The position numbers and the translations under genes were made by a program. The notes below the pieces were generated by a model. The model was given only the letters and a program-made list of their open reading frames with translations, did no database searches and was not told the DNA's origin. DNA of 64,000 nt, taken from NCBI GenBank assembly GCA_905480235.1, contig CAJQPP010000054.1, positions 1-64,000 of the forward strand, read 5' to 3'. This DNA is from an uncultured Pirellulaceae bacterium. Its GTDB lineage: Bacteria; Planctomycetota; Planctomycetia; Pirellulales; Pirellulaceae. Of this stretch, positions 23,167 to 35,090 are shown in pieces (the stretch's first letter is position 1; each line of letters opens with the position of its first letter).

Positions 23167-23511
23167 ATGCTAGTTCTATCAAGAAAAAAAGACGAACAAA
23201 TTATCGTTGGCGATAATGTGAAAATTAAAATTCTGCAGATTCGTGGGAACACGGTTCGCATCGGCATCGAAGCACCGGGAGAAATTTCCGTGATGCGTGG
23301 TGAGTTGGTCCAGGAAATTGAGACCCTCGAGACGGATTCGAACTGCACCATTGAATTTCGAAATAACGATTCCGGCGCGATTCCGATTAGTCCTCGTTTG
23401 AGAGTAGTGGCCCAAAAAGAGGCTACCGATACCCCGTCAAAATCTCATGATCTTGGCACTCATCGTTTACAAAAACTGATCGAGAAAATGACCGGCCAAA
23501 ATCAGGTCTGA
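23167..23511 (+). CDS. csrA: Carbon storage regulator CsrA with C-terminal extension
   Basis: 114 aa. The first 52 residues are a full CsrA (MLVLSRKKDEQIIVGD, then VRIGIEAPGEISVMRGEL), including the RNA-binding residues Leu4, Arg6 and Arg44. CsrA dimers bind GGA motifs in mRNA leaders and usually repress translation. The family is normally 60-75 aa; here about 45 extra residues end with a charged helix (THRLQKLIEKMTG). A strong SD (AAAGGAG) precedes the ATG. The leader contains further GGA triplets at 23111 and 23134, so autoregulation is possible. A terminator follows directly. Confidence 0.96.
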   Translation: MLVLSRKKDEQIIVGDNVKIKILQIRGNTVRIGIEAPGEISVMRGELVQEIETLETDSNCTIEFRNNDSGAIPISPRLRVVAQKEATDTPSKSHDLGTHRLQKLIEKMTGQNQV

Positions 23512-26996: not shown

Positions 26997-27124
26997 CGGT
27001 GGCGGTTTGCCAAGCAGGCCTGTGAGCGATTTCGGACCTTGTGAACCGAAATGCCAATAACAAAGGCAATGGCGCAACGCACATTTCGCACACGGGTACG
27101 AAGAACCATCCCGGCATTAAGAAA

Positions 27125-28252
27125 TCAACAACACCAATGCTCGATCATCTTGGTGTACATCTCACTTCCCAACGTAAGTTGCTCGATGGCAATCCACTCA
27201 TCGCGGGTGTGTGCTTGAGCAATATTACCAGGTCCGAAAACAATTAAGTTTTCCAACTCGCTCAGCACCCCACCATCGGTACCAAAGCAAACGGTGCGTG
27301 CCGCACTGCGGTGTACGAGTCCCAAGGAATCTTGCACAAATGGATTATCGCTGTCTGTAAACAAAACGCTGTCCATATCGACGATATCAATTTCCAAGCC
27401 TTGTTGTTCGCCTGCAACCCGCACTCGCTCGAGTAGCGGTTTGATATCGATTCCCGGAACGGGCCGTGTATAGATCACACACGATGTGCTCGGCGAGGTG
27501 ATATTCGGTGCGTCATTGGAATCATTAATAACGATGTTCCAGGATATACTGGGAGGATCGAACATCGTATTTTGCCATTTCGTGTCGTTTTCCACTTCGT
27601 CGTGAATTCGTTTCATTTCTGAAAGGAAGGGAATCATCGCCAAGTTGGCGTTCTTACCCAAGGAAGTGCTGGAATGGGCGGCCTTGCCTTTCGACGTGGC
27701 GGTGATAATGCACATGCCTTTGTGGGCATGAACCACTTCCAATTGCGTCGGTTCCCCGATGACTCCACGGGTTTGCGTTTCTACCATTTCACGAAATGTC
27801 TTACTTTCCTCAACGACCTTTCGAGCCCCGTGAAATCCTACCTCTTCGTCCGCAGTGAAAACCATGTACAGAGGCTGCTGGAGATCGTCGGAGTGAAATC
27901 GTTGAGACGCCGTCAGCATGCAGGCAATCGAGCCTTTCATATCGCAGCTGCCTCTTCCATAGAGTCGCTCTTTTGAAATAGCCGCTTCGAATGGACCGTA
28001 TTTTGTTGAAAACCAGTCTTCCGCCGGGACGGTGTCGGTGTGCGCGAAGAGTGCCAAGCCCCCCTCACCACGACCCTTTTTGGCGATCAAGTTTACCTTG
28101 CGAACTCGATTTGCGTCGCGGTACTCGACTTTCTCAACCTCGAAACCGTGTTTCACGAGTTTCATTTGCAGATATTTGCAGATCACTCGGTTGGTCAAAT
28201 GACTGGTCGATTCGAATCCGATTAACCGCTTGGCGTAACGCAGCGTTTTCAT
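27125..28252 (-). CDS. M20 family metallopeptidase (ArgE/DapE-like)
   Basis: 375 aa from ATG 28252; the frame extends upstream but the family N-terminus (MKTLRYAKRLIGFESTSHLTN) fixes this start. Two-zinc site motifs: LALFAHTDTVPA (His and Asp), RGSCDMKGSIAC, FTADEEVGFHGAR (catalytic Glu pair), GEPTQLEVVHAHKG, and the C-terminal FGPGNIAQAHTRDEWI (His). A dimerisation domain lies between (GKAAHSSTSLGKNA). It resembles acetylornithine deacetylase or succinyl-diaminopimelate desuccinylase. No arg or dap genes are near, so the substrate is unassigned. Cytoplasmic. Confidence 0.88.
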   Translation of the reverse strand: MKTLRYAKRLIGFESTSHLTNRVICKYLQMKLVKHGFEVEKVEYRDANRVRKVNLIAKKGRGEGGLALFAHTDTVPAEDWFSTKYGPFEAAISKERLYGRGSCDMKGSIACMLTASQRFHSDDLQQPLYMVFTADEEVGFHGARKVVEESKTFREMVETQTRGVIGEPTQLEVVHAHKGMCIITATSKGKAAHSSTSLGKNANLAMIPFLSEMKRIHDEVENDTKWQNTMFDPPSISWNIVINDSNDAPNITSPSTSCVIYTRPVPGIDIKPLLERVRVAGEQQGLEIDIVDMDSVLFTDSDNPFVQDSLGLVHRSAARTVCFGTDGGVLSELENLIVFGPGNIAQAHTRDEWIAIEQLTLGSEMYTKMIEHWCC

Positions 28253-28492
28253 GATAGGAATGGTAGGTAAGAAATGATGGAAATTCGGTCTACGGTCTGA
28301 ATCGTCCCCAGTTTTATGAGATAACACCGTTTCAGGTCGACGGAGCGAGGACACAATTTATACTGATACAATAAATGAAGCTGGTATGGGCCACAAGCTT
28401 TCCAAAGGAGAGTGCTTCCCCTCATCGAATGCCCGTTATGCCGTCGTTTCCACCGTCTCTTAGTACTAACCGTTAGCTGATTTACCTCACCC

Positions 28493-29926
28493 ATGGGCTC
28501 CGATCAATTTGCCGGCCAATCTCTGCTGCTCGTTACCGGCCGGCTGGCCGAACCTGCGCTACGGCGGATGGTGCCACAATGGCAGCAACAATTTGATGTG
28601 CAATTGTCGTTACAAGTCATGCCGATCACCGTGGCGGCGTTGATGTCTCCGCAATGGTTAGCCAAACATTTGCAAATCCCGGAAAATTGCGATGCCATTA
28701 TTTTGCCTGGTTATTGCGACGGAGATTTAAAACCTTTGCAGGAACTCACTGATTTACCCATTCACGTGGGACCTCGTGACGTTCGCCAATTGGCAGAATT
28801 TTTTGGCGGAAAACTCGATCCTCCTTCTTTGGAGGAATACAGCATCGACATAATCGCCGAAATCAATCACGCGCCTCGATTGGAATTGCAGGATTTGATT
28901 TTCCAAGCAGAGTCGTTGCAAAACGACGGTGCCAATATCATTGATATCGGCTGCGAGCCTGGCACGATCTGGCAGGAGGTCGGTACGGTAGTCCGTGAGT
29001 TAGTCGATCGTGGTTTGCAAATTTCCATTGATAGTTTGAATCCCAAAGAGATCTCACCTGCCGTTGAAAACGGTGCTTCGTTGGTATTGAGCGTAAATTC
29101 CAGTAACCGCCAAGCTGCACTCGATTGGGGGTGCGAAGTCGTTGCGATCCCCGATAACCCTGGCGATTGGTTACAAGTATCTGACACGGTCGATTTTCTT
29201 GCCGCCCGAAATGTCCCCTTTCGCATCGATCCCATTCTGGAACCCATCGGATTTGGTTTTGCAGCCAGCTTGGCTCGTTATATGGAGGCGCGGCAAACCT
29301 GGCCCGATGCAGAGATGATGATGGGCATCGGTAACCTCACGGAGTTAAGTGATGTCGACTCGAGTGGCATCAATTTTCTGCTCTTGGCGATTTGCGAAGA
29401 ACTGTCAATTGGCAGTGTCCTGACGACTCAGGTCATCAATTGGGCGCGCAGCAGTGTCAGAGAATGTGACATCGCGCGGCGCATGGTGCACTTAGCCGTG
29501 CAACAGAATATCCCACCAAAGAACATGATTTCTGATCTTGTCTGTTTGCGAGATCCCAAAATTCGCAAACTCAACGATGCTGATCTTCAGGCACTTGCGG
29601 ACAGCATCCGGGATAATAATTATCGCATTCTTGCAGAAACCAGGCATGTCAGTGATTCTGGGGCGCGATCCATTCACCTGCTCGGAGGTGGTCAGCACTG
29701 GTGTCACGAAGACGCTTTTGAGTTGTTTCAACAATTAATGGATTCTGAGCCACGAAATTTAGATGCATCCCATGCTTTTTACCTCGGATATGAGATGTGC
29801 AAGGCGACGATCGCCAATCAACTTGGTAAAAACTATGAACAAGATGAAGCCCTGCGCTGGGGCCATCTAACCGTAGAAGAGATCAGCCATCGTCGGCTGC
29901 AAAGGCAAAAACGAAAAAAAACCTGA
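28493..29926 (+). CDS. Dihydropteroate synthase-related protein of H4MPT synthesis (DUF6513-type)
   Basis: 477 aa. Residues about 8-110 are an N-terminal domain not found in FolP (LLLVTGRLAEPALRRMV, DAIILPGYCDGDLKPL). From about 120 a pterin-binding TIM barrel follows (IIAEINHAPRL, ESLQNDGANIIDIGCEPG, ISIDSLNPKEISPAVENGASLVLSVN, AEMMMGIGNLTELSDVDSSGINF). The C-terminal stretch (HLLGGGQHWCHEDAFELF, then ASHAFYLGYEMCKA) is also family-specific. It resembles the archaeal DHPS-related family thought to join the dihydropterin to beta-RFA-P. It starts the H4MPT block, 16 bp before pabB. Confidence 0.88.
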   Translation: MGSDQFAGQSLLLVTGRLAEPALRRMVPQWQQQFDVQLSLQVMPITVAALMSPQWLAKHLQIPENCDAIILPGYCDGDLKPLQELTDLPIHVGPRDVRQLAEFFGGKLDPPSLEEYSIDIIAEINHAPRLELQDLIFQAESLQNDGANIIDIGCEPGTIWQEVGTVVRELVDRGLQISIDSLNPKEISPAVENGASLVLSVNSSNRQAALDWGCEVVAIPDNPGDWLQVSDTVDFLAARNVPFRIDPILEPIGFGFAASLARYMEARQTWPDAEMMMGIGNLTELSDVDSSGINFLLLAICEELSIGSVLTTQVINWARSSVRECDIARRMVHLAVQQNIPPKNMISDLVCLRDPKIRKLNDADLQALADSIRDNNYRILAETRHVSDSGARSIHLLGGGQHWCHEDAFELFQQLMDSEPRNLDASHAFYLGYEMCKATIANQLGKNYEQDEALRWGHLTVEEISHRRLQRQKRKKT

Positions 29927-29942
29927 ACGCAACGCCCCTCCC

Positions 29943-31379
29943 ATGACGCAGGCCAGTCCTTTTGTAATTGAAATCCACGCACCTCCGACTCCGGAAGAGG
30001 CCGCTCGTTGCTTGGCGCACTTGCCACATTTGCTGTTGCTGGAGAGTTCGATGCGGCAAACCCGACTGGGGCGCTATTCGTTCCTCTCTGCAGATCCCGC
30101 CGAGTGGTTTCAACCCGGTCCGGATGGCGAATCTGAGACATTCGATTGGTTAAACCAACGTTTGGCATTTCGTCTCGATCCGGTGCCGGGACTCCCTCCC
30201 TTTCAAGGTGGCGTTGCCGGTTTATTCGGCTATGAATTCAATGCCTCGATTGAATGCATTGCGGCTGCTGCCCCCACAAAAGACCCTGCGGTTTCATTGG
30301 GTCTTTATGATGTGGTGATCGCTTGGGATCACGAGTTGGACAAGTGCTGGATTATTTCAACCGGCGCTCCCGAGCAGGAACCGACCGGCCAACAGAGCAG
30401 GGCAGCCGAAAGGGCGCGGTTTTTTAAGGCCCTCCTCGAATCGCCCTCGCGTTCGGTTTTTCAAGTGCTTGATTCCCAGTCTTTCCGCGATCGGACGCCA
30501 TCGGGCAAATGGTTTCCTTGCCCGGCAGAATCCAATCTCACCAGTAATTTTGATCGCGAAGGATACCTAAAAACCATCCAGCAGGCGCTGGATTACATTC
30601 ACGCTGGGGATATTTTTCAGGTCAATATCGCTCAGCAACTCTGTCATCCCGCTACGACTCACTCACTGGAACTCTATCAAAACTTGCGGGAGTACAACCC
30701 TGCGACGTTTGCAGCTTATTTTGACACGGGCCATTCCCAAGTCATCAGTGCCTCCCCGGAACGACTCGTTTCCGTGCAAGATCGGATCGTAGAAACGCGA
30801 CCCATCAAAGGTACTCGGCGGCGCACAAAGCATCCCGAGGTCGATATCAACGTTGGCCAGCAGTTATTAACCAGCGAAAAGGATCGAGCGGAAAATGTAA
30901 TGATCGTCGACTTGATGCGAAATGACCTTTCGCGGATCTGCAGCGACGATTCGGTGGAAGTTACCCAATACGTTCAGCTGGAAAGTTACGCGTCTGTACT
31001 ACATCTGGTATCGGCGGTGCAGGGAGAACTGCGACCTGACGTGCAGGCTGCCGATTTATTGAAGGCCGTTTTCCCTGGCGGTTCCATCACCGGAGCCCCC
31101 AAAGTACGAGCGATGGAGATCATTGCTGAATTGGAACCTCACCCCCGTGGGCCCTATTGCGGTTCACTGGGTTATTTGGGCTTCAATGGAAACGTCGATC
31201 TCAACATCTTGATTCGAACCATTACTGCGAAAGATGGCTACTGGACCATTCCGGTGGGCGGTGGCATTGTGGCGGGCAGTGTTCCCGAGCTGGAATACGA
31301 GGAGACTTGGACCAAAGCCCACGCGATGTTAAATGCAGTGGAAGCTTCCGCTGCCCATCTCACAGGCACCCGCTCATGA
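29943..31379 (+). CDS. pabB: Aminodeoxychorismate synthase component I
   Basis: 478 aa. The C-terminal chorismate-binding domain shows IHAGDIFQVNIAQQL, FDTGHSQVISASPERLV, RPIKGTRRR with the PabB-type Lys289 (anthranilate synthases lack this Lys), AENVMIVDLMRNDLSRIC, FPGGSITGAPKVRAMEII and YCGSLGYLGFNGNVDLNILIRT. It aminates chorismate to 4-amino-4-deoxychorismate with ammonia from PabA. The gene sits between the DHPS-related gene and pabA, with its TGA inside the pabA ATGA. In this setting the 4-aminobenzoate probably feeds H4MPT, and perhaps folate too. Confidence 0.95.
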   Translation: MTQASPFVIEIHAPPTPEEAARCLAHLPHLLLLESSMRQTRLGRYSFLSADPAEWFQPGPDGESETFDWLNQRLAFRLDPVPGLPPFQGGVAGLFGYEFNASIECIAAAAPTKDPAVSLGLYDVVIAWDHELDKCWIISTGAPEQEPTGQQSRAAERARFFKALLESPSRSVFQVLDSQSFRDRTPSGKWFPCPAESNLTSNFDREGYLKTIQQALDYIHAGDIFQVNIAQQLCHPATTHSLELYQNLREYNPATFAAYFDTGHSQVISASPERLVSVQDRIVETRPIKGTRRRTKHPEVDINVGQQLLTSEKDRAENVMIVDLMRNDLSRICSDDSVEVTQYVQLESYASVLHLVSAVQGELRPDVQAADLLKAVFPGGSITGAPKVRAMEIIAELEPHPRGPYCGSLGYLGFNGNVDLNILIRTITAKDGYWTIPVGGGIVAGSVPELEYEETWTKAHAMLNAVEASAAHLTGTRS

Positions 31380-32074
31380 TCCTTTTGATTGACAACTACG
31401 ATAGTTTCGCACACAACCTCGCGAGGTACCTGCGGCAGCTCGGGCAACAGGTAAAAGTGGTACGGAACGACCAAATTACCACGGCAGAAATCGCTTCCTT
31501 AGCACCACAGGCAATCGTTATTTCGCCGGGACCATGCACACCTGACGATTCCGGAATTTGCCTTGCCTTGGTTGAGCACTTTGCCGTTTCCATACCTATC
31601 TTGGGTGTTTGCCTTGGCCATCAAACGATCTGTCAGGCTTTGGGGGGCCGTATCGTTCGCGCCGAACCACGACACGGACGCTCCAGCTCAGTGGTTCATT
31701 TTGGACATCCGCTATTTGATAAAATTGCCAGTCCGTTCGTGGCAGGTCGTTACCATTCATTGGTATTGGAAGCCGAGTCGCTGCCAGAATCGCTGCAGGT
31801 GATCGCCCAATCTGCGGACGGTACGGTCATGGGCGTTGGTCATCGCGAATACCCGGTGATAGGCGTGCAATTTCATCCTGAATCAATTCTCACGTTATGT
31901 GGCTACCGATTACTGGGGAATTTCATTCGCTTGGCTGGCATGAAATGTGACGAATCGCGACTGGAACAACTCTCAACCGAACTGGCGTCTCAGGCCGAGG
32001 ATCCACCCGTGTTTGAAGCCGACACGAGCGACCCCAAATGGCATCCTTACGCGGGCATCAAATTTCCATCATGA
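31376..32074 (+). CDS. pabA: Aminodeoxychorismate/anthranilate synthase glutamine amidotransferase
   Basis: 232 aa from ATG 31376, overlapping the pabB stop as ATGA; the longer open frame upstream lies inside pabB. Class I glutamine amidotransferase: LLIDNYDSFAHNLARYL, VISPGPCTPDDSG, ILGVCLGHQTICQALGG with the nucleophile Cys, VAGRYHSLV, and VIGVQFHPESI with the His-Glu pair. It supplies ammonia to PabB and may also serve TrpE. About 35 extra C-terminal residues exceed the usual length (about 190-200 aa). Its stop overlaps the DUF447 start by ATGA. Confidence 0.94.
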   Translation: MILLIDNYDSFAHNLARYLRQLGQQVKVVRNDQITTAEIASLAPQAIVISPGPCTPDDSGICLALVEHFAVSIPILGVCLGHQTICQALGGRIVRAEPRHGRSSSVVHFGHPLFDKIASPFVAGRYHSLVLEAESLPESLQVIAQSADGTVMGVGHREYPVIGVQFHPESILTLCGYRLLGNFIRLAGMKCDESRLEQLSTELASQAEDPPVFEADTSDPKWHPYAGIKFPS

Positions 32075-32664
32075 TTCTCGAAGCTATCGTAACGACTCGC
32101 AACCAAGACGGTACGACCAACGTCGCACCGATGGGACCGTATTGCAGTGACCCCAGCTTTGGCCAATTCGAGTTGCGGCCCTTTCGGACCTCGCAAACTT
32201 GGAAAAATTTGAGGCAGCATCCTCAAGGTGTTTTACATATCACCGACAACGTGATGTTATTTGCCATGGCGGCGATCAAGTCGCGCTGCGATGTCAAACT
32301 GGAACCCGCGGCAAGTATCGATGGGGAATACCTGAGCAACTGTTGCCGGTGTTACGAATTTCAGGCAACCTGGATGGATGCCACCCAGGATAGAGCTGCC
32401 GTGCAATGCCGCACCGTTCAGACCCATCGCTTTCGGGATTTCATTGGTTTCAACCGTGCCAAGCATGCGGTTATTGAAGCCAGCATTTTGGCAACCCGAG
32501 TCGATTTCCTACCCGCTGAACAAATCAGAAGCCAAATGATTGATTTGAAAAAAATGGTCACCAAAACAGGTGGCGAACAGGAAAATGACGCCTTCCACAC
32601 ACTCGAACTATTTCTCAGAGAACACGGAGCGAGCGCCTGCGAGACGTCGGCATCCCCACCATGA
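32071..32664 (+). CDS. DUF447 family protein of the H4MPT gene set
   Basis: 197 aa from ATG 32071, overlapping pabA by ATGA. Family segments: MILEAIVTTRNQDGTTNVAPMGPYC, FELRPFRTSQTWKNLRQHPQGVLHITDNVMLFA, and CRCYEFQATWMDATQDRAAVQCRTV, then FIGFNRAKHAVIEASILATR. DUF447 proteins have an FMN-binding split-barrel-like fold and recur in H4MPT clusters of archaea, methylotrophs and planctomycetes. The reaction is not established. Tight coupling to pabA and RFAP synthase supports a role in the same pathway. The Met-Ile start at the family N-terminus supports the chosen ATG. Confidence 0.88.
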   Translation: MILEAIVTTRNQDGTTNVAPMGPYCSDPSFGQFELRPFRTSQTWKNLRQHPQGVLHITDNVMLFAMAAIKSRCDVKLEPAASIDGEYLSNCCRCYEFQATWMDATQDRAAVQCRTVQTHRFRDFIGFNRAKHAVIEASILATRVDFLPAEQIRSQMIDLKKMVTKTGGEQENDAFHTLELFLREHGASACETSASPP

Positions 32665-33620
32665 ATCCCATGACCACCGATATTACCTCCGTATCTACGG
32701 GCAGCCGCCTACACTTTGGGCTGACTCGTATCAAGCCTGGATCGCGGGACTGCATCAACGGTGTGGGAGTCATGATTGATGCGCCATGTACCCGTTTGGA
32801 ATTTCGTCCCGCCAAGACATTTGGCACCCGTGGATCTGAAAGGCTGGAGACCTTCGCGACCGCCTGGAGCAGAGACACCGGACATACGCTACCGAATTGT
32901 GAAATAGTGCTTGTCGGACAACCGCCGGAACACGCGGGATTTGGCAGCGGCACGCAACTGGCTCACGCGGTGGCCCACGGTCTCAATCAAGTTTCTGGCC
33001 ATCCGCCTCGACTCGATGAGTGCGAGGCCCAAAAGGTGGCTGCCGTCTGTTACCGGGGCAACCGTTCCATGGTTGGATCATTTGGATTCGTAAATGGTGG
33101 ATTGATTGTGGATGGGACCGACGCAGCAGGGAAAACGACGTTAATCGACCAGGCCCGGTTACCAGAAAACTGGCGGATAATTGTGGCAGTCGCGAAACAG
33201 GCCGCAAAAAAATTTGGCTTACAGGAGCAATCCGCGTTTGCTAATATCGGAGCAGGCACGAACAGCCGGGCCACGGACCTCGAGCGACTGATAAGCGAGC
33301 ACATCCTGCCCTCGGCCCAACGCGCTGATTTTGGGAGCTTTGCCGATTCGGTCCACGCCTACGGAAAACTTTCCGGCGAGTATTATACCGAGGTACAGGG
33401 TGGGGTTTACAATGGCCCCGTTATCACTGGGGTTGTAAACGCCTTACTCGGATTGGGCGCCAGAGGCGTTGGACAGTCGTCTTGGGGTCCAGCAGTTTTT
33501 GCCTGGTGTGAAGACGAAGACGAAGCTCAAAATATCGTTGCACGGTTACCCTCGGCATTCGGACATCCATTGGAAATATTTAACACCACAGCACAGAATC
33601 GACCTGCTCAAATTGGCTGA
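32661..33620 (+). CDS. Beta-ribofuranosylaminobenzene 5'-phosphate synthase (GHMP fold)
   Basis: 319 aa, overlapping the DUF447 stop by ATGA. GHMP-kinase superfamily features: STGSRLHFGLTRI at the N-terminus, the glycine-rich loop PEHAGFGSGTQLAHAVAHGL (about residues 90-110), and the C-terminal GLGARGVGQSSWGPAVFAW. This combination marks beta-RFAP synthase, which condenses 4-aminobenzoate with PRPP, releasing CO2 and PPi, in the first committed step of H4MPT synthesis. Placement after pabAB means substrate supply and use are in one transcript. pdxJ follows 55 bp later. Confidence 0.9.
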   Translation: MNPMTTDITSVSTGSRLHFGLTRIKPGSRDCINGVGVMIDAPCTRLEFRPAKTFGTRGSERLETFATAWSRDTGHTLPNCEIVLVGQPPEHAGFGSGTQLAHAVAHGLNQVSGHPPRLDECEAQKVAAVCYRGNRSMVGSFGFVNGGLIVDGTDAAGKTTLIDQARLPENWRIIVAVAKQAAKKFGLQEQSAFANIGAGTNSRATDLERLISEHILPSAQRADFGSFADSVHAYGKLSGEYYTEVQGGVYNGPVITGVVNALLGLGARGVGQSSWGPAVFAWCEDEDEAQNIVARLPSAFGHPLEIFNTTAQNRPAQIG

Positions 33621-33675
33621 TCTCAGCTTTACCTAACAACTTAAAAAATTCATTTATTCCAGAAAAGACACTTTC

Positions 33676-34410
33676 ATGGCTACCCTTGGTGTGAACATCG
33701 ATCATGTTGCAACCGTGCGTCAGGCTCGCCAAACCAATGAACCGGATCCTGTGTGGGCGGCGGCTTTGGCTCAACTGGGTGGGGCTGATTGCATCACGGT
33801 GCACTTGCGCGAAGACCGAAGACACATCCAAGATCGAGACTTAAGAGTTCTCAAGGATACCGTGACGGTCAAACTGAATCTGGAGTGCGCGGTGGTTCCT
33901 GAGATGCTGGATATCGCTTGTGAGATTCAACCGCAACAGGTCTGCCTGGTTCCGGAACGTCGCGCAGAGGTAACCACCGAGGGTGGATTAAACGTGGTCG
34001 ACAATGAAAGTCGAATCAAGCAGGCTGTAGAACAATTACAAACGGCCGGAATACGCGTTAGTCTTTTTATCGATGCCACCGCCGATCAAATCAATTCGTC
34101 AGTGGCGGTTGGAGCGGACGCAATCGAAATCCACACCGGTCCGTACGCCAATGCGACCGGCGTCAACTGTGAAAAGGAACTCTCCAAAATCGCCCTGGCG
34201 ACCCTGCATGGTCACAAAGCAGAGATGGAAGTACACGCGGGGCACGGATTGACCTACAACAATGTTGAGCCGATCGCTTCGATTGTCGGGATCGACGAAC
34301 TGAATATTGGACATGCGATCGTCAGCCGCTCGATCTTTTGTGGGTTCCAGAGCGCCGTTCGCGAAATGAAAGATATCCTGCTACGTTGCGTGTCACAGCC
34401 AGCCAAGTAA
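33676..34410 (+). CDS. pdxJ: Pyridoxine 5'-phosphate synthase
   Basis: 244 aa, the normal family length. Motifs: MATLGVNIDHVATVRQARQ, DPVWAAALAQLGGADCITVHLREDRRHIQD, VKLNLECAV, QVCLVPERRAEVTTEGGLN, VSLFIDA, VGADAIEIHTGPYAN, VHAGHGLTYNN and ELNIGHAIVSRSIF. It closes the pyridoxine ring from 1-deoxyxylulose 5-phosphate and 3-amino-2-oxopropyl phosphate in the DXP-dependent vitamin B6 route. It may be read through from the H4MPT operon but is not part of that pathway. It is convergent with the next gene (37 bp apart). Confidence 0.97.
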   Translation: MATLGVNIDHVATVRQARQTNEPDPVWAAALAQLGGADCITVHLREDRRHIQDRDLRVLKDTVTVKLNLECAVVPEMLDIACEIQPQQVCLVPERRAEVTTEGGLNVVDNESRIKQAVEQLQTAGIRVSLFIDATADQINSSVAVGADAIEIHTGPYANATGVNCEKELSKIALATLHGHKAEMEVHAGHGLTYNNVEPIASIVGIDELNIGHAIVSRSIFCGFQSAVREMKDILLRCVSQPAK

Positions 34411-34447
34411 AACCAGCGTGGCCGAAAAGCAACGATCCCAAAGCCGG

Positions 34448-34858
34448 TCACTCATCACGCTTTACTAAACCGGCCCCACTGTTGAAATATTTTCGTCGAC
34501 GGGAATCGGTTTTATCCTGAGACTCGGCCTGCTGTTGCTGCAAATCCTTCAAGCAGGCGATTGTGAACGGACACTTCAATGTTTCAATGCGAAACTTGAT
34601 ATAGTCGACCTCTTCCGGCGAAAGAATTCCCAACAGGTAATTGCCTAAATGCTCAGGCGTGGGCACACCAATTTGGTTGCGCCTCCAAATCTCGCCCAGC
34701 GTATGCATTCCCGCGTCGCGGCGACCATTGATCCGCGACAGTCGATAGAGAAGCTCTTGATCATTCGCCAGGGCGGCCTCCACATCCTGAGCTCGAGCCG
34801 GATCCAGTGACTCGTCGAGAAATGCCTCTAATTCAGCGTCAGTAAATGCATCAGACAT
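34448..34858 (-). CDS. Small anti-sigma-factor-like protein
   Basis: 136 aa with SD AAGGATTTCC before the ATG. The N-terminus (MSDAFTDAELEAFLDESLDPARAQDVEAAL) has the look of the short acidic helix region common to planctomycete anti-sigma-type proteins. The middle (IGVPTPEHLGNYLLGILSPEEVDYIKFRIETLKCPFTIACLKDL) repeats the pattern and includes a CxxxxxC pair. No membrane segment and no adjacent sigma factor gene, so the regulatory role is inferred only from resemblance. It lies downstream of the AAA ATPase gene on the same strand. Confidence 0.68.
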   Translation of the reverse strand: MSDAFTDAELEAFLDESLDPARAQDVEAALANDQELLYRLSRINGRRDAGMHTLGEIWRRNQIGVPTPEHLGNYLLGILSPEEVDYIKFRIETLKCPFTIACLKDLQQQQAESQDKTDSRRRKYFNSGAGLVKRDE

Positions 34859-35090
34859 CGGAAATCCTTACTAGCACGGATGAAGACCTCATCCTATCGA
34901 GGCCGGGTGGCCTAGGGAATAGAGGGAGGGTTGCGATTTAGGAAAACGGCACTCAACTTGAAATCAGCGATGGCTTATGCGGCGAGTATACGTGCGTTTA
35001 ACCAAACCCAAGTCCGGGCAATCGGCACGCGAAGGTACCGCCCGATTCGTGACGCGGGGCCTGCGGTCGCTCCCGCCGAATTGAGCCGTC

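Follow-up and report, generated by a model that had tools for sequence, protein, structure and literature searches.

Tetrahydromethanopterin (H4MPT) is a cofactor most familiar from methanogenic archaea. The H4MPT and methylofuran genes of methylotrophic bacteria are gathered in archaeal-like islands that comprise fhcABCD, mptG, mtdB, orfY, mch, orf5, orf7, orf17, orf1, orf9, pabB, orf22, orf19, orf20, and afp (PMC4109929, PMC3615186). The planctomycete locus analyzed here resembles these islands in that RFAP synthase (mptG) and pabB both belong to their listed gene set, but differs in that its pabB and pabA lie inside a compact operon with genes for a DHPS-like protein, a DUF447 protein, and an RFAP-synthase-like (RFAPS-like) protein, with the C1-transfer genes located elsewhere. 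The DHPS-like and DUF447 genes are probably the counterparts of methylotroph orf20 and orf19, respectively. An earlier note on this DNA had called the block a poorly described system. That description holds only in part. For methylotrophs, pabB is already listed with the genes commonly tied to the H4MPT pathway (PMC3615186, with Kalyuzhnaya 2005 among its sources; PMC4109929), and H4MPT genes of planctomycetes have been on record since 2004 (PMC5020050). For the compact five-gene order and for a fusion of DUF447 to the RFAPS-like protein, we found no description in the literature searched, the original 2004/2005 reports being outside its scope; the fusion finding is probably new, and we claim no priority.

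Organization and recurrence of the five-gene block

The window, meaning the whole stretch of DNA analyzed (64,000 nucleotides), lies on contig C54 of a 4.83-Mb assembly of 167 contigs, a metagenome-assembled genome (MAG) that is 86.67% complete. Its nearest named relatives are Pirellulaceae and Planctomycetaceae MAGs, and its DUF447 protein is 84% identical to that of Planctomycetaceae bacterium Cli_10. The earlier note had placed five forward-strand genes at positions 28493-33620 and had reported that ATGA overlaps join four of them, at 31376, 32071, and 32661. The open reading frame coordinates proved exact, and all three tetranucleotides read ATGA, the start of each next gene overlapping the preceding TGA. 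The features of the region are as follows:

28493..29926, + strand: DHPS-like protein, TIGR00284-like; DUF6513, a partial pterin-binding barrel, and PterinBD-DUF4346
29943..31379, + strand: pabB, aminodeoxychorismate synthase component I; TIGR00553 over cut-off; PIKGT signature
31376..32074, + strand: pabA, aminodeoxychorismate synthase glutamine amidotransferase; PF00117 and TIGR00566 over cut-off
32071..32664, + strand: DUF447 protein, FMN-binding split-barrel family; PF04289 and PF20766 over cut-off
32661..33620, + strand: beta-RFAP-synthase-like GHMP-fold C-glycosynthase; NF040726/TIGR00144 matches below cut-off
31376..31379, + strand: ATGA overlap of pabB and pabA; recurs in 13/52 loci
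32071..32074, + strand: ATGA overlap of pabA and DUF447; recurs in 24/75 loci
32661..32664, + strand: ATGA overlap of DUF447 and RFAPS; recurs in 30/77 loci, with the two genes fused in seven other genomes
32742..32753: variable Arg26-equivalent region, residues 28-31 of the RFAPS-like protein; compared with L068 and L083
33676..34410, + strand: pdxJ, pyridoxine 5'-phosphate synthase; a frequent downstream neighbor and a candidate operon member only

Overlaps occupy three of the four junctions of the block; at the remaining one, 16 bases separate the DHPS-like gene from pabB. Bacterial operons in general often show overlaps of this kind, so a single one is unremarkable; here, four of the block proteins are probably coupled in translation through their overlapping starts. 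The downstream pdxJ gene is co-directional with the block in several Pirellulaceae loci and is reversed or missing elsewhere. Upstream of the DHPS-like gene lies a divergent M20-family peptidase/deacetylase gene (27125-28354), as it does in six other Pirellulaceae-type loci, and a CsrA-like carbon storage regulator, judged by eye from the sequence, is found at 23167-23511. An Rfam search of positions 27000-35000 returned no RNA element, and promoter-like sites showed no enrichment (2 found against 5.1 expected from shuffles). Terminator-like sites numbered 15 against 8.0 expected but fell mostly within genes, and neither kind of site was used as evidence.

The same gene order, sought in related genomes, recurs across Planctomycetota. 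To count linkage, hit coordinates were taken from independent searches for three families (DHPS-like, pabB, and DUF447) in 40 order-level genomes, a set that includes the window's own. In 16 of these genomes the three loci all fall within 3.5 kb of each other. Linkage of two or more of them is seen in 31, and of none in the remaining nine, some of which are fragmented assemblies. The complete five-gene order in one direction appears in 14 of 80 named loci phylum-wide, many of them on short contigs, and gene-level tblastn searches place the DHPS-like, pabB, pabA, DUF447, and RFAPS genes co-directionally in many loci, mostly at ~33-55% identity. The most stable pair is pabA-DUF447, which is kept where pabB has moved away and also occurs in loci outside the order. 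Recurrence of the block order exceeds chance. DUF447 is present in 39 and mch in 38 of the 40 order-level genomes; since only 15 of 149 genomes spread over the phylum carry DUF447, the trait is nearly universal within this order and patchy across the phylum.

The rest of the genome places the block in an H4MPT context. Other H4MPT genes are present, with the C1-transfer genes on contigs other than that of the block: two copies of fae, mch, ftr/fhcD, an mtdB-like gene (Mpt_N) beside fae, and an mfnB-like gene that encodes 4-HFC-P synthase. The second fae paralog (L039:7697-8245) is more divergent than the first (197.8 vs 241.2 bits). At L038:7588-10333, an ATP-grasp gene is divergent to fae and the mtdB-like gene follows fae; the same trio is also found on the DUF447 loci L123 and L155. 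These genes support the prediction of an H4MPT-type cofactor pathway in the window bacterium and, together with the tight packing of pabB, pabA, DUF447, and RFAPS, bear out the earlier claim of an H4MPT-type biosynthesis operon with pabBA inside it in a bacterium. A genome devoid of other H4MPT genes (mch, fae, fhc) would have counted against that claim by the earlier note's own criterion, and this check did not refute it.

We consider it likely that this conserved block functions in planctomycetes as an operon for making the pABA-derived half of an H4MPT-type cofactor, drawing on a shared pABA pool and with DUF447 acting next to RFAP. In this scheme, PabAB would make aminodeoxychorismate, which a lyase encoded elsewhere would convert to pABA. 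A single pool would then feed both folate synthesis by FolP and the RFAPS-like enzyme, which would condense pABA with PRPP to give RFAP. DUF447, together with the RFAPS-like enzyme, may carry out a flavin-dependent reaction on RFAP itself or at a neighboring step, perhaps opening the ribose ring by reduction to yield the deoxyribitol, and the DHPS-like protein would bind a pterin and probably take part in joining the two halves. The placement of pabAB in the block would serve local supply and co-regulation rather than a private pABA pool.

DUF447 and its fusion to the RFAPS-like protein

Both halves of the DUF447 family, DUF447_N and DUF447_C, match the window protein over cut-off. Its AlphaFold model (pLDDT 93) finds other DUF447 proteins as the nearest solved folds, followed by flavin reductases. 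The DUF447 structures 3b5m (Rhodopirellula baltica), 2nr4, 2iml, and 2ptf share the family and fold of the window protein, with TM-scores by query of 0.82-0.84 to 3b5m and 0.82 to 2nr4 chain A. The archaeal entries 2nr4, 2iml, and 2ptf are described as FMN-bound, whereas for the window protein FMN is predicted from these homologous crystal structures. Sequence places the window protein in the FMN-binding split-barrel family, and FMN would be its predicted cofactor.

DUF447 and RFAPS are fused in seven planctomycete genomes, namely G025, G171, G103, and those of the named records L146, L151, L165, and L179. Each fusion is one uninterrupted frame of ~500-530 residues with a short linker:

L066:319-1872: DUF447-RFAPS fusion frame
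L096:349-1851: DUF447-RFAPS fusion frame
L097:1492-3042: DUF447-RFAPS fusion frame
L146, L151, L165, L179: DUF447-RFAPS fusion frames of the named records

On a tree of 81 RFAPS rows (a short search with SH-aLRT support only), the fused state needs six changes, whether gains or losses, at least five of which are forced by starred branches. Assembly or frameshift error is unlikely to have produced the fusion repeatedly.

The fusions suggest that DUF447 works at the RFAP step or the one beside it, and this link to RFAPS, combined with the FMN-type fold, leads us to propose a flavin step next to RFAP. The pathway requires opening of the RFAP ribose ring and its reduction to a deoxyribitol, and our literature search found no enzyme assigned to this reaction. 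More tentatively, and at somewhat less than even odds, DUF447 could be an FMN-dependent H4MPT enzyme that takes the product of RFAP synthase as its direct substrate, for instance reducing the ribofuranosyl ring toward the deoxyribitol, and that forms one bifunctional protein with RFAPS in several planctomycetes. The fusions would offer a concrete, assayable candidate for one unassigned enzyme of H4MPT biosynthesis. DUF447 need not be specific to H4MPT, since it is also present in our control genome, Haloferax volcanii, which is reported to be without methanopterin-specific enzymes (PMC8305020).

An FMN-binding, flavin-reductase-like fold would also suit the last step of the pathway, and afp (AfpA) is reported as unrecognized in planctomycete genomes (PMC5020050), so that DUF447 might instead be the missing planctomycete dihydromethanopterin reductase. 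We regard this as unlikely: RFAPS, at the first committed step, is the partner in both the fusion and the gene overlap, and archaea, in which DUF447 is found as well, reportedly possess an FMN reductase of their own, DmrX (PMC6193120).

The RFAPS-like and DHPS-like proteins

The window RFAPS-like protein shares a common GHMP-derived fold family with the archaeal beta-RFAP synthases (MTH0830, MJ1427, and AF2089) and with ForT, and a profile of the planctomycete RFAPS family finds ForT at 5.4e-34. It differs from the archaeal enzymes in falling below the NCBIfam cut-offs and in the replacement, within its genus, of an arginine linked to pABA. Beta-RFAP synthase models match it clearly but below their thresholds, at 85.6 bits where the NCBIfam equivalog cut-off is 328 and at 62.7 of 113.5 bits. 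The PRPP-holding side chains of ForT are R19, H99, T106, R135, and S139 (PMC8183095). They correspond to R16, H91, T98, R132, and S136 of the window protein, and in the alignment of 92 rows each of these residues is retained in 91 or 92; by sequence, the RFAPS-like protein keeps the predicted PRPP site of the C-glycosynthase family.

The pABA-linked arginine is less constant. Replacement of Arg26 with Lys in the archaeal enzyme MTH0830 raised the KM for pABA about tenfold (PMC6787355). The equivalent residue is Arg in 73 of 92 rows and varies in the window's genus, being Asp in the window protein (with an Arg one residue earlier), Asn in G002, and Glu in G001. Because the equivalent residue in ForT lies ~18 Å from PRPP (PMC8183095), which casts doubt on its belonging to the active site, its loss does not settle activity.

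The DHPS-like protein contains DUF6513 and Pterin_bind domains and matches TIGR00284 at 169.6 bits, under the cut-off of 256.65. The closest solved folds of its model are dihydropteroate synthases (TM-score by target ~0.66; pLDDT 76), a comparison that uses the barrel only, as confidence is low over much of the last third. Like FolP, it has a pterin-binding barrel; unlike FolP, it adds an N-terminal DUF6513 and a C-terminal DUF4346 and is missing FolP motifs. In a profile alignment to the FolP proteins of relatives, its SIDS and IDP stretches align with SIDT and LDP of FolP, and the FolP motifs N-T-P-D-S-F, S-R-K, and R-V-H-D are absent or replaced. With a partial barrel kept and these motifs absent, the protein is pterin-binding-like and not FolP. 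That it joins RFAP to the pterin, as the earlier note suggested, is a hypothesis; the corresponding joining activity in Methanocaldococcus has reportedly been credited to MJ0301, which belongs to a different family. We also considered whether the DHPS-like protein makes folate as well and rejected this, as the relatives carry a canonical folP-type match.

The divergence of these proteins also allows another reading, in which the block is chiefly a folate/pABA operon and what its RFAPS-like, DUF447, and DHPS-like proteins produce is another pterin or C-riboside in place of H4MPT. The sub-threshold RFAPS scores and the loss of the Arg26 equivalent in the window's genus would fit such a product, as would the use of another aromatic acid by the homologous ForT (PMC8183095) and the presence of DUF447 in Haloferax, a reported folate user (PMC8305020). 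Against it, fae, mch, ftr, and mtdB-like genes in the same genomes imply an H4MPT-type carrier, and the position of pabAB immediately upstream suggests that the substrate is pABA, which makes a different product quite improbable.

PabB, PabA, and a proposed shared pABA pool

The window PabB carries a Chorismate_bind domain and scores 337.9 bits against TIGR00553 (pabB; cut-off 328.4). Its PIKGT lysine signature is shared by block homologs, whereas TrpE of the window genome reads PIAGT and TrpE of relatives reads PLAGT. PabA exceeds the cut-off for a trpG_papA-type GATase and contains GVCLGHQ and FHPES motifs. One PabB and one TrpE were found in the window genome, the latter in a trpE-G-D-C/F cluster on contig C76 with a separate TrpG. 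On these sequence features, PabB and PabA are identified as the predicted aminodeoxychorismate synthase of the cell.

The relatives, including both same-genus genomes, carry a canonical folP-type match, and nearly all also have a metH-type match. Neither folP nor metH was matched in the window genome, a gap that most likely reflects the incompleteness of the MAG. Since nearly all checked relatives combine one PabB with folP, this PabB must serve folate too, and the earlier proposal that the operon dedicates pABA supply to H4MPT finds no support. A dedicated source apart from folate, suggested by the position of pabBA between H4MPT biosynthesis genes with overlapping starts, by the adjacency of pabA and DUF447 even where pabB has moved away, and by a second PIKGT copy in G004 that could be dedicated there, is very improbable given the single PabB of this genome and of nearly all relatives, which also carry FolP. 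A single shared PabB would instead mean one pABA pool for two one-carbon carriers, so that competition between folate and H4MPT becomes testable.

For the lyase step, pabC was not identified in the window genome, where the only class-IV aminotransferase found (L181:1366-2316) resembles IlvE; either pabC falls within the portion of the genome that the MAG lacks, or the step is performed by a different enzyme. A literature search combining planctomycete aminodeoxychorismate synthase with folate found nothing.

Two chorismate-binding matches are the rule among the 40 genomes. Forty such places, apart from the window genome's own and the block copies, were read directly, and 38 showed PLAGT or PIKGT; extra copies in G006 and G022 have neither signature. 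Among them, only G004 has a further PabB of the PIKGT type in addition to that of the block (G004:C98:1398-2165, L200).
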